A stretch of DNA of 64,000 nucleotides, from contig NZ_AP024871.1 in the NCBI RefSeq assembly GCF_024346875.1, forward strand, positions 992,001 to 1,056,000, in the 5' to 3' direction. The notes below the pieces were generated by a model. The model ran no database searches. It was not told the DNA's origin and saw only the letters and a program-made list of their open reading frames with translations. Positions 42,397 through 47,133 of the stretch are shown here, in pieces; within the stretch, counting starts at the first letter, position 1; each line of letters begins with the position of its first letter. This DNA comes from Vibrio gallicus (GTDB taxonomy: Bacteria; Pseudomonadota; Gammaproteobacteria; Enterobacterales; Vibrionaceae). The position numbers and the translations under genes are program-made.

Positions 42397-42427
42397 TAAA
42401 AAAGCCAGCAACTTTCGTTACTGGCTT
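42397..42427 (-). terminator. Terminator after the ATP-grasp gene
   Basis: On the minus strand AAGCCAGTAAC, loop GAAA, GTTGCTGGCTT and six T (stem arms at 42402-42412 and 42417-42427). A GAAA tetraloop and long stem make it strong. Confidence 0.9.
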
Positions 42428-42460: not shown

Positions 42461-43426
42461 TTACTTAAATGCCGTCCCAAATTGCTTAGCTGCGTAGGCA
42501 ACGCGCTCTGCTGGTTTTGGATATTCTATTGGTGTTGCTAAATTTTCTATATGATGAAGACGAGGTAGCAACCCAGCCCCATTGGCTATTTGTATTGCCA
42601 GCCCTGGTCTAGCATTAAGCTCTAATACCATAGGCCCTTCTTCTTGGTCTAGAACCATATCTGTACCCATATAGCCAAGCCCAGTCATTTCCCAAGCACT
42701 AGAGGCGAGGGTAAGTAACCTTTCCCAGTGCGGTACTTGCAAAGACATAAGATCTTTACCTGTATCAGGGTGGTGAGTGACGGGTAGGTCATATTGTACC
42801 GCTCTTACTGCCTTACCTGTCGCAATGTCTATACCGACCCCAACCGCGCCTTGGTGAAGGTTGGCTTTGCCGTCTGAGTTGGAGGTCGATAAACGCATCA
42901 TTGCCATCACTGGGTAGCCCTTAAATACGATAATCCGTACATCGGGAACCCCTTCATAACTGAAGCCTTTAAAGCAGTCATCAAACTTGATGAGGTTTTC
43001 TACTACAGCGACATCATTTTTCCCCCCAAGAGAGAACAACCCAGCGAGGGTATTACTGATATGCCGCTCAACATCTTGTTCATTTACCGTATCGCCAGAT
43101 GGCTTGGTATAGACGCCATCTTTGTGAGAAAGGATAACTAAAATACCCTTACCGCCACTACCTTGCGCCGGCTTTATACAAAAGCCAGGCCAGTTTTTCA
43201 CCATGTTATGGATGCGCTTTACTTCAGCTTGTTGGCTAATTACCCCAATAAGCGCTGGCGTTGTGGCACCGTGTAACTTTGCGATTTCCTTAGTCTTTAG
43301 TTTGTCATCAACTAATGGGAATTTACTGCGATCATTATACTTACTGATATAACTGTGATTGCGTTGATTCATCCCCATAATGCCTTTGGAGCGGATCTTC
43401 GATGGCGAAGTAAATTGACTAAACAT
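42461..43426 (-). CDS. ATP-grasp ligase, alpha-L-glutamate ligase-like
   Basis: A 321-residue ATP-grasp protein of the RimK-related (alpha-L-glutamate ligase-like) group. GFCIKPAQGSGGKGILVI (about residues 81-98) is the nucleotide-binding glycine loop, with DFENLIKFDD-like spacing further on. VLELNARPGLAIQIANGAG (about 277-295) is the metal-binding C-terminal motif with the conserved Glu and Asn. It would form an amide or peptide bond with a carboxylate activated by ATP. It is the last gene of a three-gene module, 3 bases after the 7TM gene. The substrate is unknown. Confidence 0.87.
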   Translation of the reverse strand: MFSQFTSPSKIRSKGIMGMNQRNHSYISKYNDRSKFPLVDDKLKTKEIAKLHGATTPALIGVISQQAEVKRIHNMVKNWPGFCIKPAQGSGGKGILVILSHKDGVYTKPSGDTVNEQDVERHISNTLAGLFSLGGKNDVAVVENLIKFDDCFKGFSYEGVPDVRIIVFKGYPVMAMMRLSTSNSDGKANLHQGAVGVGIDIATGKAVRAVQYDLPVTHHPDTGKDLMSLQVPHWERLLTLASSAWEMTGLGYMGTDMVLDQEEGPMVLELNARPGLAIQIANGAGLLPRLHHIENLATPIEYPKPAERVAYAAKQFGTAFK

Positions 43427-43429
43427 AAT

Positions 43430-44935
43430 CTAGTCCTCCGCTAAAGGCTTGAAGCGACGCAGTTCGGTTAGGCGATAGCCTGTATAGTTGCCTAGCATCA
43501 GAATCATCGCCAATACAATCAGCTGAACACCAATAAAGTTAAACGTTAGGTGCTGGATATAGATGTTGGTCATTGCTAGGTAAACAAGTACCGCGGTAAG
43601 CAGTGAACCACCACCTTGTAGCATAACTTCTTTGGCACCTTCCTCTTCCCACAGTATCGACATACGTTCGATAGTCCAAGACAGGATAATCATAGGGAAG
43701 AAGGTGATTGAAAGTCCCTCAATTAAGCCGATGTTAAATGCCACTATGGTAAATACTGAGATAATCAGTATTACGGTTATTATCACCGCGGATATTCGTG
43801 CTACCAGTAACAGGTTGAGTTTGGATAGATAACTTCGAATTACCAGACCTGTACCTACAATCAATAGGAAGCCGACGATGCCGGTTAATAATTGAGTTTG
43901 AACAAAGGCAACCGCAATTAACACTGGCATGAAGGTACCAGATGTTTTCAGGCCAATAAGTATTCTTAAGAACACCACGATAAATGCCCCAATAGGAATT
44001 AGCATGATGGTCTTAAACATCGATTGCTCTTCTAGGGGTAAGCTGTGGATTGAAAAGTTCAGCAGGTCGTCAGAGCGAACCTTGCTATTGGTCGCGGCAC
44101 GTGGGGTTATATCTTGCGCAATCATAGAGAACAGTACTTGGCTATTACGTCCTCCCGTAACGTCGAGCAGTGATACGTTCGACTCATCCCAGATCAGGGT
44201 ATTTGCGTCTTGTCCTTGTTCGCCGGTTTCTGCATTAAATAGTGACCAATGATCTCCGTTCCAAACATCAACCATAGGCTGTATTGTTTGGCGGCGGCGT
44301 CCATCTTCTAATTGAATTACGCCAACGGTTTTATTGGGTACTTTAGCGTAAGAGAGCAGGGCAGCTAATGCCTCAGGCTTAGTGTACTGATTCAATAGTA
44401 GTGCTGCGTTTTGGCTATTCTCATCATTAAGTTTGCGAATAATCTCACGAGCAAGGGTTTCATCGTTAGCACTGCGCTCAGTTGCCTGTGAAATAATAGC
44501 CTGTGCCGCAGCCTCTTGAGGCCCATCAAATGTTGGAGGTACAATATCGCCATCGGGAGCGATTTGTTTCACCTTAGCTTGAGGGTCTACAAGAAATTGA
44601 GCCTTATAATAGATGGTTTGTGGGCCTTGTGCGTGGCGTACACTCCACTCTGCTCGTCTGCCTATGTCAGAGGACACAAATGCGACCCCATAACCTGGAG
44701 ATGAGGTGGATTCATCTACTAAGGTATAACCATTTTGTGTACTAGGAGCGGCTAAAGAAACCGTAACTGGTTCACCCTGCGCAACGAGCTCGACTCGTGC
44801 TTCTACATCCCATAATTCACGACTATCACCTGGGGTCCAAGGTACCCCGTAAGAGTCGTGTCGCATGTACATTAATGTTGCACCCGCGACAACCAACAAG
44901 GCAATAAATATATAAAACGGCACTCGTGAAGTCAT
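43430..44935 (-). CDS. Inactive transglutaminase domain fused to 7 transmembrane helices
   Basis: A 501-residue protein of the 'UUP1' type. A membrane anchor at residues 7-24 is followed by a large periplasmic part (about 25-300) containing an inactive transglutaminase-like domain. In YAKVPNKTVGVIQLEDG and WNGDHWSLFNAETGEQ the Cys of the triad is not seen. A C-terminal block from about 300 has roughly six or seven hydrophobic helices (IPIGAFIVVFLRILIGL, FMPVLIAVAFVQTQL, VIITVILIISVFTIVAF, VQLIVLAMILMLG). It probably senses or presents a peptide in the periplasm to its partners. It sits 3 bases before the ATP-grasp gene and 32 after the protease gene. Confidence 0.88.
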   Translation of the reverse strand: MTSRVPFYIFIALLVVAGATLMYMRHDSYGVPWTPGDSRELWDVEARVELVAQGEPVTVSLAAPSTQNGYTLVDESTSSPGYGVAFVSSDIGRRAEWSVRHAQGPQTIYYKAQFLVDPQAKVKQIAPDGDIVPPTFDGPQEAAAQAIISQATERSANDETLAREIIRKLNDENSQNAALLLNQYTKPEALAALLSYAKVPNKTVGVIQLEDGRRRQTIQPMVDVWNGDHWSLFNAETGEQGQDANTLIWDESNVSLLDVTGGRNSQVLFSMIAQDITPRAATNSKVRSDDLLNFSIHSLPLEEQSMFKTIMLIPIGAFIVVFLRILIGLKTSGTFMPVLIAVAFVQTQLLTGIVGFLLIVGTGLVIRSYLSKLNLLLVARISAVIITVILIISVFTIVAFNIGLIEGLSITFFPMIILSWTIERMSILWEEEGAKEVMLQGGGSLLTAVLVYLAMTNIYIQHLTFNFIGVQLIVLAMILMLGNYTGYRLTELRRFKPLAED

Positions 44936-44967
44936 AACAATCCTTATTCTCGATGCGACCTAAAATG

Positions 44968-45723
44968 TCACTTTAGTGGTTTGGTTTGAACGTAAGTTTT
45001 ACTTACATCTACTAATGCGATGTCTTTGATAAATTCCCTTCCTAAAAGAACATCATGATCCATATGGGTACGGTCGGCTAATGTAAACAGGGTGTCCTGT
45101 CGTATGTTACCAACGGTAATCCAAAGCTTAATTACTGGGCGGCGTAGGGCCTTATCGGTATTGGATTGGCGAACCTTGGCATAACGCACAAATTTGGCCT
45201 CCATCCATACCGGTTCAGCGTTGTCACTGCTGTCGTTTGATACATCAAAGCGAACCCATTTTTTGCCATTTCGTTCGAACATTTGAACCTGTTTTGCATT
45301 GAGCGATGAGGTTTCAGCTCCAGTATCAATGCGCGCCTCAAAACTGATCTTGTTTTGTTCAAACTCCACGGTCTCAATGGCACCTAATACGGTCTGAGTA
45401 TCTGCAATAGGCTTAGATGGGATGATAATAGGTTTCGGTGCTTCCTCAGTTTTTGCGAGTAGTTGTCTAGCGTTCTGTTTTGCAAGGTTATCAACTCGGT
45501 ATGAAAGCCTACCCACATTAGTGTGCAGCTTCTTAATCGTTGAGTTTTGAGTCTCAATGGTGGCTCTTAGAGCAGCAATTTGGGTGTTTATATTTTGCTC
45601 TGATTGCTCAACCGCTTGTATTGACTCCTGTCTAAATTGTCGTTCTTCCTCTTGCGCTTGCTTGGAGGTGACACATCCGGAAAGTAACAAAGCGCCGGAT
45701 AAAGTGACAATATACTTGAGCAT
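44968..45723 (-). CDS. Retropepsin-like aspartyl protease lipoprotein
   Basis: A 251-residue envelope protein. Lipobox LLSGC (Cys17) is followed by a predicted coiled coil (about residues 22-92) and then a retropepsin-fold domain (PF05618-type, often misnamed 'ATP-dependent zinc protease'). The active aspartate is D133 in ARIDTGAETSSLNAK, and LLGREFIKDIALVD closes the fold. One Asp per chain means it should dimerise; the coiled coil may help. It is the first gene of the module, so it sets the transcript. It begins 172 bases after the cmoB stop. Confidence 0.88.
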   Translation of the reverse strand: MLKYIVTLSGALLLSGCVTSKQAQEEERQFRQESIQAVEQSEQNINTQIAALRATIETQNSTIKKLHTNVGRLSYRVDNLAKQNARQLLAKTEEAPKPIIIPSKPIADTQTVLGAIETVEFEQNKISFEARIDTGAETSSLNAKQVQMFERNGKKWVRFDVSNDSSDNAEPVWMEAKFVRYAKVRQSNTDKALRRPVIKLWITVGNIRQDTLFTLADRTHMDHDVLLGREFIKDIALVDVSKTYVQTKPLK

Positions 45724-45894
45724 TATGAACTTATACCTATTAGTTATATTTTATAATCGCCAAGTTACTAGATTTTATGCAACCAGTGGCTTTTCTAGTC
45801 TTCTTGTTCGAGTGTAGCCTATATTGAATTCTTCGTGAAGTATCAACGTGTTATATCACAAATAACTCATTTTTTCGTTTGAGGGTTGGTTGAA

Positions 45895-46869
45895 CTATTG
45901 AGGGTTTTCGCCAATCAATATTGCCCTTCTTGGAGCCGGATACCCTTCAACTGTTTTACTTGGATCTGTCGGATCTAAGTATTCAGGAAGAGAGTTGTGC
46001 GTCATCCAATCTGTGCTGCGCTGTTCACCTAAGGATGTAACGTTCTCATCGACAATTCGCACGTTCACTAGTCCACATTTTTCCATCCAAACCTTTAATG
46101 CTTTAGCGGAAGGGAAAAAATAGACATTACGCATCTGGGCATAGCGATCAGCTGGAACTAAGACTGCGTTCTCATCTCCGTCGATAACCAAGGTCTCAAG
46201 AACCAATTCGCCGCCAGGCAGCAGTTGGTTTTTGAGCTGCATTATGTGGTCAAGGGGAGAGCGGCGATGATAAAGCACGCCCATACTAAATACGGTATCG
46301 AAGGCCTTAAGCTCTGGCAGTTGTTCTATTCCAAGTGGTAGCAGATGAACTCGCTGATCGTTGTTCATCAATTTACGCACTGCTTCAAACTGAACGAGGA
46401 ATAGATGTGAAGGGTCAATTCCCACACAAAGGCGTGCACCTTCACCGAGCATACGCCACATATGGTAGCCATTGCCACATCCGACATCCAATACTGAGCG
46501 TCCTTTCAAAGGTGTAATATGTGGAAGTAATCGATCCCATTTCCAGTCAGAACGCCACTCGGTGTCGATATGAATGTCATGCAGGGTAAATGGACCTTTG
46601 CGCCAAGGATGGAAGGTCTTGAGCAGGTTCTCTAGCTTCTTTTTCTCACCTTCAATCAATGGCTGAGAATTAGAAACGCTAACCTCATATTTTAGCTCTA
46701 TATTATCGGGTGTTAGCTCGGGGATCTTATTGAGCGCTCGTATCCAGCGATCAAAATCACCGTGTTCAGCTCGCTGCCAGTCAATCAGCTGCTTGGGTAA
46801 TATTTCTAGCCAAGAGTGCAAGCGCGTGTCTTGGGCAATGAGTTGGTAAAAATTGGCGAAATTAAACAT
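45895..46869 (-). CDS. cmoB: tRNA U34 carboxymethyltransferase CmoB
   Basis: CmoB uses carboxy-S-adenosylmethionine to turn 5-hydroxyuridine 34 into 5-carboxymethoxyuridine in tRNAs. The 324-residue protein matches E. coli CmoB (323): [11 protein letters not shown] start, SAM-type loop [52 protein letters not shown] and [21 protein letters not shown] 46869 is chosen over TTG 46890 by homology. cmoA, which makes the cofactor and is usually adjacent, is not next to it here. Confidence 0.96.
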
Positions 46870-47133
46870 GTATTTCAACTTGTTAGTCAACGAATCTTAA
46901 GCGTCGAAAACCTTACACCGCAGTGACCAAAATTGATAGAGGTTCTGTGCTTATTGATGTCAAATTTGAGTTAAATGATGAATGTTTGTTGGCTTAGCAG
47001 CGTGATTCACCATCAAAGCGTGGTTTATGCAACTAATCTAGCCAATCTCTGACTATGTTTAGCAAGACAATAGAGGAATAAATTGTCGCTATGCATCTCA
47101 TATGCAATTGCTAGTAACTTGTGGTTGATTGGG

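Follow-up and report, generated by a model that had tools for sequence, protein, structure and literature searches.

The rloABC operon was named in Pseudomonas aeruginosa by Lormand and others (mBio 2025; PMC12239564), who also solved structures of RloA. In their hands, RloA cleaves stretches of 8 or 10 glutamates and leaves those of 6 or fewer uncut, and no genome-encoded candidate for this cleavage was found. In hypo-osmotic (salt-free) medium, a strain lacking the three RloA paralogs fails to grow unless rloB or rloC has been removed as well, and its rescue by RloA requires the catalytic aspartate and two arginines, whose loss abolished it (PMC12239564). The same source reports effects of rlo on osmotic survival, biofilm, cell shape and the response to wall antibiotics, describes the substrate as unknown and mentions orthologs in Vibrio cholerae, rloABC being upregulated there by VxrB. 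The element addressed here is a three-gene operon of Vibrio gallicus, carried by a stretch of 64,000 nucleotides (contig NZ_AP024871.1, positions 992,001 to 1,056,000; hereafter the window), which is the Vibrio ortholog of this already published system. The view of the first-pass annotation that the locus is a poorly described system is thus superseded, the system having been named and characterised in 2025 with mention of the V. cholerae orthologs (PMC12239564). The additions of the present analysis are a lipoprotein form of RloA (no literature search was aimed at that form) and a sister lineage whose RloB retains a transglutaminase triad, of which a search of the open-licence literature found no description in print.

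Other described systems share parts of this architecture. RimB-RimK, involved in polyglutamylation of ribosomal protein S6, also pairs a retropepsin with an ATP-grasp ligase, but RimB is cytoplasmic and the system has no RloB, whereas RloA of the window has a lipobox and adjoins RloB. Like RloB, the hm2192 product of Shewanella vesiculosa combines an inactive transglutaminase domain with seven helices and has an envelope phenotype, its disruption increasing vesicle production (PMC12096838).

The window operon has the same three domains, gene order and common strand as P. aeruginosa rloABC. Indeed, it consists of three adjacent minus-strand open reading frames that encode, successively, a retropepsin lipoprotein, a transglutaminase-seven-transmembrane (7TM) protein and an ATP-grasp ligase, and that are separated by 32 and 3 bases, so that the tight module initially proposed has the coordinates and spacing claimed for it (Table 1). 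The three annotations proposed with it are likewise upheld by domain profiles: RloA matches PF05618 (residues 112-249, E 1.6e-40), RloB matches PF14400 (2.2e-55) and PF14402 (1.5e-107), and RloC matches PF14397 (1.8e-100) and TIGR02291 (545 bits for a cut-off of 314.2). As in P. aeruginosa, the retropepsin keeps D-T-G-A, whose Asp133 had been correctly assigned from the outset, and both key arginines, at Arg195 and Arg218, next to a dead transglutaminase-7TM protein and an ATP-grasp ligase. A phmmer search of the PDB with window RloA retrieves 9g58 (1.8e-16), 9g59 (6.1e-15) and also 2pma; the first two are presumably the crystal structures of RloA from the 2025 P. aeruginosa study.

Table 1. 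Coordinates of the rlo operon of the window, of its functional residues and of its flanking features
Feature	Position in window	Strand	Remarks
rloA ortholog	44968..45723	-	251 amino acids; predicted outer-membrane lipoprotein, coiled-coil stalk, C-terminal retropepsin domain
Catalytic Asp133 of D-T-G-A in RloA	45325..45327	-	
RloA Arg195	45139..45141	-	equivalent to Arg114 of P. aeruginosa RloA, which coordinates polyglutamate; hand count on alignment, numbering from PMC12239564
RloA Arg218	45070..45072	-	equivalent to Arg137 of P. aeruginosa RloA; hand count on alignment, numbering from PMC12239564
rloB ortholog	43430..44935	-	501 amino acids; inactive transglutaminase domain and membrane domain; PF14400 and PF14402
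Transglutaminase-fold domain of RloB	44105..44821	-	residues 39-277, triad lost
PF14402 membrane domain of RloB	43442..44173	-	residues 255-498
rloC ortholog	42461..43426	-	321 amino acids; ATP-grasp ligase; PF14397, TIGR02291 above cut-off
RloC Lys85	43172..43174	-	in conserved KPAxGSGGxGI; invariant in 40 aligned RloC, kept in one sister-lineage RloC
RloC Glu269-x-Asn271	42614..42622	-	invariant in 40 aligned RloC, kept in one sister-lineage RloC
Terminator-like stem-loop 3' of rloC	42402..42427	-	11-pair stem, loop of 4, T run
Gap upstream of rloA, probable promoter region	45724..45894	-	171 bases; preceded by same-strand DUF1698 methyltransferase gene
DUF1698 methyltransferase gene preceding rloA	45895..46890	-	

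Window RloA differs from its P. aeruginosa counterpart by a lipobox, a long coiled coil, the motif R-I-D-T-G and the lack of a disulfide cysteine pair. Its N-terminus, MLKYIVTLSGALLLSGC, looks by eye like a lipobox (LSGC), in which Cys17 is the sole cysteine of the protein and is followed by a valine. A valine after the lipid cysteine directs lipoproteins to the outer membrane. Since this residue is present, window RloA should be located in the outer membrane, reaching inward. The heptad pattern of residues 26-90 was equalled by only 1 of 1000 shuffles. Two main designs emerge when the 73 same-strand RloA from the class and phylum samples are compared. The first (52 of 73) has at least two cysteines after the catalytic Asp and is mostly short with a K-L-D-[TS]-G motif; a lipobox was flagged in only 2 of these 52 by a simple pattern that misses some lipoboxes. 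The second (19 of 73) has no cysteine after the Asp and most of its members read R-[IV]-D-[ST]-G; 13 of the 19 combine a flagged lipobox with a linker of no fewer than 40 residues (62 to 117, and one of 214), and two of the other six (L189 and L194) resemble the first design minus its cysteines. The remaining 2 of the 73 have a single cysteine after the Asp. With its lipobox, its predicted coiled-coil stalk and no cysteine pair, window RloA belongs to the second, lipoprotein design. The D-T-G is degraded in the RloA of three other rlo operons, reading D-P-G in L205, D-D-E in L073 and D-T-A in L093, which are possibly dead proteases.

The curated NCBIfam scores are reached by neither window RloA (86.5 versus 280 bits for RloA, 82.2 versus 250 for RloA2 and 109.3 versus 210 for RloA3) nor window RloB (363.6 bits versus 900 for NF052267, a model of the kind 'exception', which we read as narrow). 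For RimB, the score of RloA (81.4 bits for a cut-off of 200) is below that obtained for RloA3. RloB lacks the transglutaminase triad, the aligned columns being occupied by a gap, Q and N, and its AlphaFold2 model has a mean predicted local distance difference test (pLDDT) of 80. The nearest other RloB, from Vibrio ishigakensis, is 93% identical; in alignment A1, window RloB shares 34-54% identity with 14 class relatives of the A-B-C lineage and 24-25% with three triad-bearing proteins. RloC retains its catalytic residues, as judged from 40 aligned orthologs of the 80 at hand: the stretch around Lys85 presumably binds ATP, and Glu269-x-Asn271 is taken to be the metal-binding pair of ATP-grasp enzymes.

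The association of the three genes extends well beyond the window. PF14402 is present in 26 of 143 class-sample genomes, the window's included, and a profile of the divergent form has matches in 77 of 369 class genomes and 46 of 299 phylum genomes (these samples overlap). The 98 RloB loci compared comprise 78 class loci (80 matches minus the window's own and the second fragment of a split gene) and loci from 20 of the 46 matching phylum genomes, chosen by hand. The order A>B>C on a single strand is found at 72 of the 85 triad-less RloB loci, and 78 of them have a retropepsin no more than 700 bases away from rloB, on the same or the opposite strand. The order is also that of 79 of the 80 nearest relatives, which belong to Vibrio, Photobacterium, Aeromonas, Halomonas and others and are not independent; the exception, L058, is truncated by a contig end. 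Hence the three genes do co-occur across genomes, the lack of which had been named as what would overturn the proposed module. That they are chance neighbours without a joint role is a general possibility for any gene cluster, but the 72 of 85 loci and the published epistasis (PMC12239564) make it so improbable here that we count it as already refuted. A third RloB clade, also triad-less, has no same-strand rloC adjacent (L193, L198, L202, L215, L216, L219, L220 and L221); in five of these eight loci (L198, L215, L216, L219 and L221), an opposite-strand retropepsin adjoins rloB, and the linkage of RloA and RloB therefore persists even without a same-strand RloC beside rloB.

The sister RloB lineage retains the complete transglutaminase Cys-His-Asp triad. 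Like the window, it combines the same membrane domain with an adjacent ligase of the same kind (34% identity between RloC of the two types, for the two sequences compared), but its triad is intact and no secreted retropepsin accompanies it. Indeed, none of its 13 loci has a retropepsin near rloB, and no secreted retropepsin was found in any of the 11 genomes whose only RloB is triad-bearing, this absence being less sure in the 4 of the 13 triad-bearing genomes that are less than 90% complete. PF01841 is found in all of the 120 triad-bearing matches listed, some of which NCBI names 'UUP1 family membrane protein', and a TPR protein is encoded downstream in the four loci inspected. RloB and RloC are adjacent in 13 of 13 of these RloA-free loci, and at L151 (4923-7436, + strand) they are fused into one protein of 838 amino acids (PF01841, PF14402 and PF14397), followed by a TPR protein; therefore, the ligase and the membrane protein belong together.

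The first-pass annotation had proposed that a cytoplasmic ligase makes a product that a periplasmic protease trims, which fits the P. aeruginosa genetics, as loss of rloB or rloC rescues the loss of RloA (PMC12239564). We consider it fairly likely that in the rloABC operon RloC produces an acidic tag, which is passed on or displayed by RloB and trimmed by RloA. In such a scheme, the cytoplasmic RloC, an ATP-grasp enzyme related to RimK, would ligate glutamate, or an acidic residue like it, either to a carrier or into a short polymer; RloB would carry or display this product at the inner membrane, its dead transglutaminase domain holding it in the periplasm; and RloA, lipid-anchored in the outer membrane on a coiled coil of about 60 residues, would form a retropepsin dimer that cleaves the acidic chain. 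Such a product would have to be kept scarce, and would weaken the envelope if left uncut.

The same suppression of rloA loss by loss of rloB or rloC would fit equally well if RloA restrained RloB (PMC12239564), that is, if RloB were a receptor-like sensor reporting the state of the envelope to RloC and RloA cut RloB itself rather than the product of RloC. The dead domain of RloB, which is ligand-binding-like and predicted to face the periplasm, would suit such a role. However, RloA needs 8 or 10 consecutive glutamates, 6 or fewer being insufficient (PMC12239564), whereas the longest run in window RloB is 3; furthermore, the sister lineage keeps B and C, with a triad-bearing RloB, in the absence of any secreted retropepsin. 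Signalling of this kind is therefore an unlikely alternative to a ligase product trimmed by RloA.

The envelope effect could also pass through the wall, RloA acting on peptidoglycan or its enzymes and rloBC making a wall modification. The cell shape and cell-wall-antibiotic phenotypes of P. aeruginosa point in this direction, as does the control of V. cholerae rloABC by VxrB, which is tied to wall integrity (PMC12239564). Nevertheless, no wall substrate is demonstrated in the literature examined, and no VxrB-like site lies upstream of window rloA, though near-matches occur in some relatives; a wall target thus seems improbable. Even when as many as 4 mismatches are allowed, the VxrB motif, TTGACAAAA-N2-TTGAC as given in PMC7695739, is absent from the 200 bases upstream of window rloA, and it has 15 matches with up to 3 mismatches across the whole window where 10.6 are expected; VxrB control of window rloA is consequently not claimed. 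A site with 3 mismatches is found in 5 of 24 loci (the window and L034-L056) versus 10 of 400 shuffled sequences. Because the scanned loci are related, this difference hints at best weakly at a VxrB-like site being retained in some relatives. No sigma-70-like match was found in the 171-base gap before rloA, on the other side of which lies a DUF1698 methyltransferase gene that we presume to be cmoB. Upstream of rloA, several relatives within the Vibrionaceae carry an inverted repeat, then T runs and finally a CTAAACT-like stretch, which suggests a separate rlo promoter in these relatives; the corresponding gap of the window is less clear.

The sister lineage raises the question of how RloB lost its triad. 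The contrast between the 0 of 13 triad-bearing and the 78 of 85 triad-less loci with a retropepsin near rloB suggests that the domain of RloB formerly did the cutting and that RloA took its place. RloB may have begun as an active transglutaminase-fold peptidase, fused to a membrane domain and cutting in cis what its ATP-grasp partner made; its site would then have died, an unrelated retropepsin taking over in trans and the dead domain being left as a holder of the product. This scenario is tentative, and we lean slightly against it. In a tree built from the membrane-domain columns only, the triad state changes a single time, so that the correlation between triad and retropepsin rests on one event; a sign test has one pair only and cannot be passed. 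In addition, the branch leading to L151 is very long, and the tree program warned of long branches meeting. Seven genomes from the class and phylum samples in which no retropepsin adjoins the triad-less RloB were also searched in full. Three of them (G544, G055 and G214) carry an Rlo-like retropepsin elsewhere, but no secreted retropepsin was found in the other four, G275 having no PF05618 match and G167, G120 and G345 having RimB-like matches only, which weighs against a displacement. Inspection by eye of the genes upstream of L180, L181 and L207 found nothing protease-like that might replace RloA beside a triad-less RloB. The most economical account of both lineages would be that B and C form a core whose product needs a periplasmic cutter, the transglutaminase domain in the sister lineage and RloA in the rlo lineage. 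Because of the single evolutionary switch, the four triad-less genomes devoid of secreted retropepsin and the three RloA with a damaged D-T-G, this account is put forward as a testable idea and not as a result.

The genome carrying the window (two contigs of 2.53 and 0.99 Mb) has a single occurrence of PF14402 and, besides RloA, encodes two further secreted-looking retropepsins. One, on the second contig (L007:4447-5091, + strand; G000:C2), is a lipoprotein of 214 amino acids sharing 45% identity with window RloA over 150 residues; it sits away from rloB, flanked by genes encoding an aminotransferase and a solute-binding protein. The other (L006:3875-5827, - strand; G000:C1 near 120877-122826) is a protein of 650 amino acids whose single chain contains four retropepsin units; as judged by eye, D-T-G is kept in units one and four but not in the middle two. 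Its neighbours are presumably OmpR/EnvZ, GreB and Tex, and long homologues are found in 6 of 59 genomes from the order, counting that of the window. This protein is reminiscent of a natural intermediate on the way from a dimeric retropepsin to a single-chain enzyme. A search that was not exhaustive, as RloC was not listed either, found no RimK above the TIGR00768 cut-off in this genome.

The window thus presents a second, lipoprotein design of the protease of the rlo system, in Vibrio and its relatives. If the displacement scenario were true, RloA and the triad-bearing RloB would be interchangeable, and studying either enzyme would reveal the substrate of RloA. The sister lineage offers a concrete approach: its RloB and the unrelated RloA may both act as proteases on one and the same product, and a cysteine enzyme lends itself to being trapped with the substrate it cuts.
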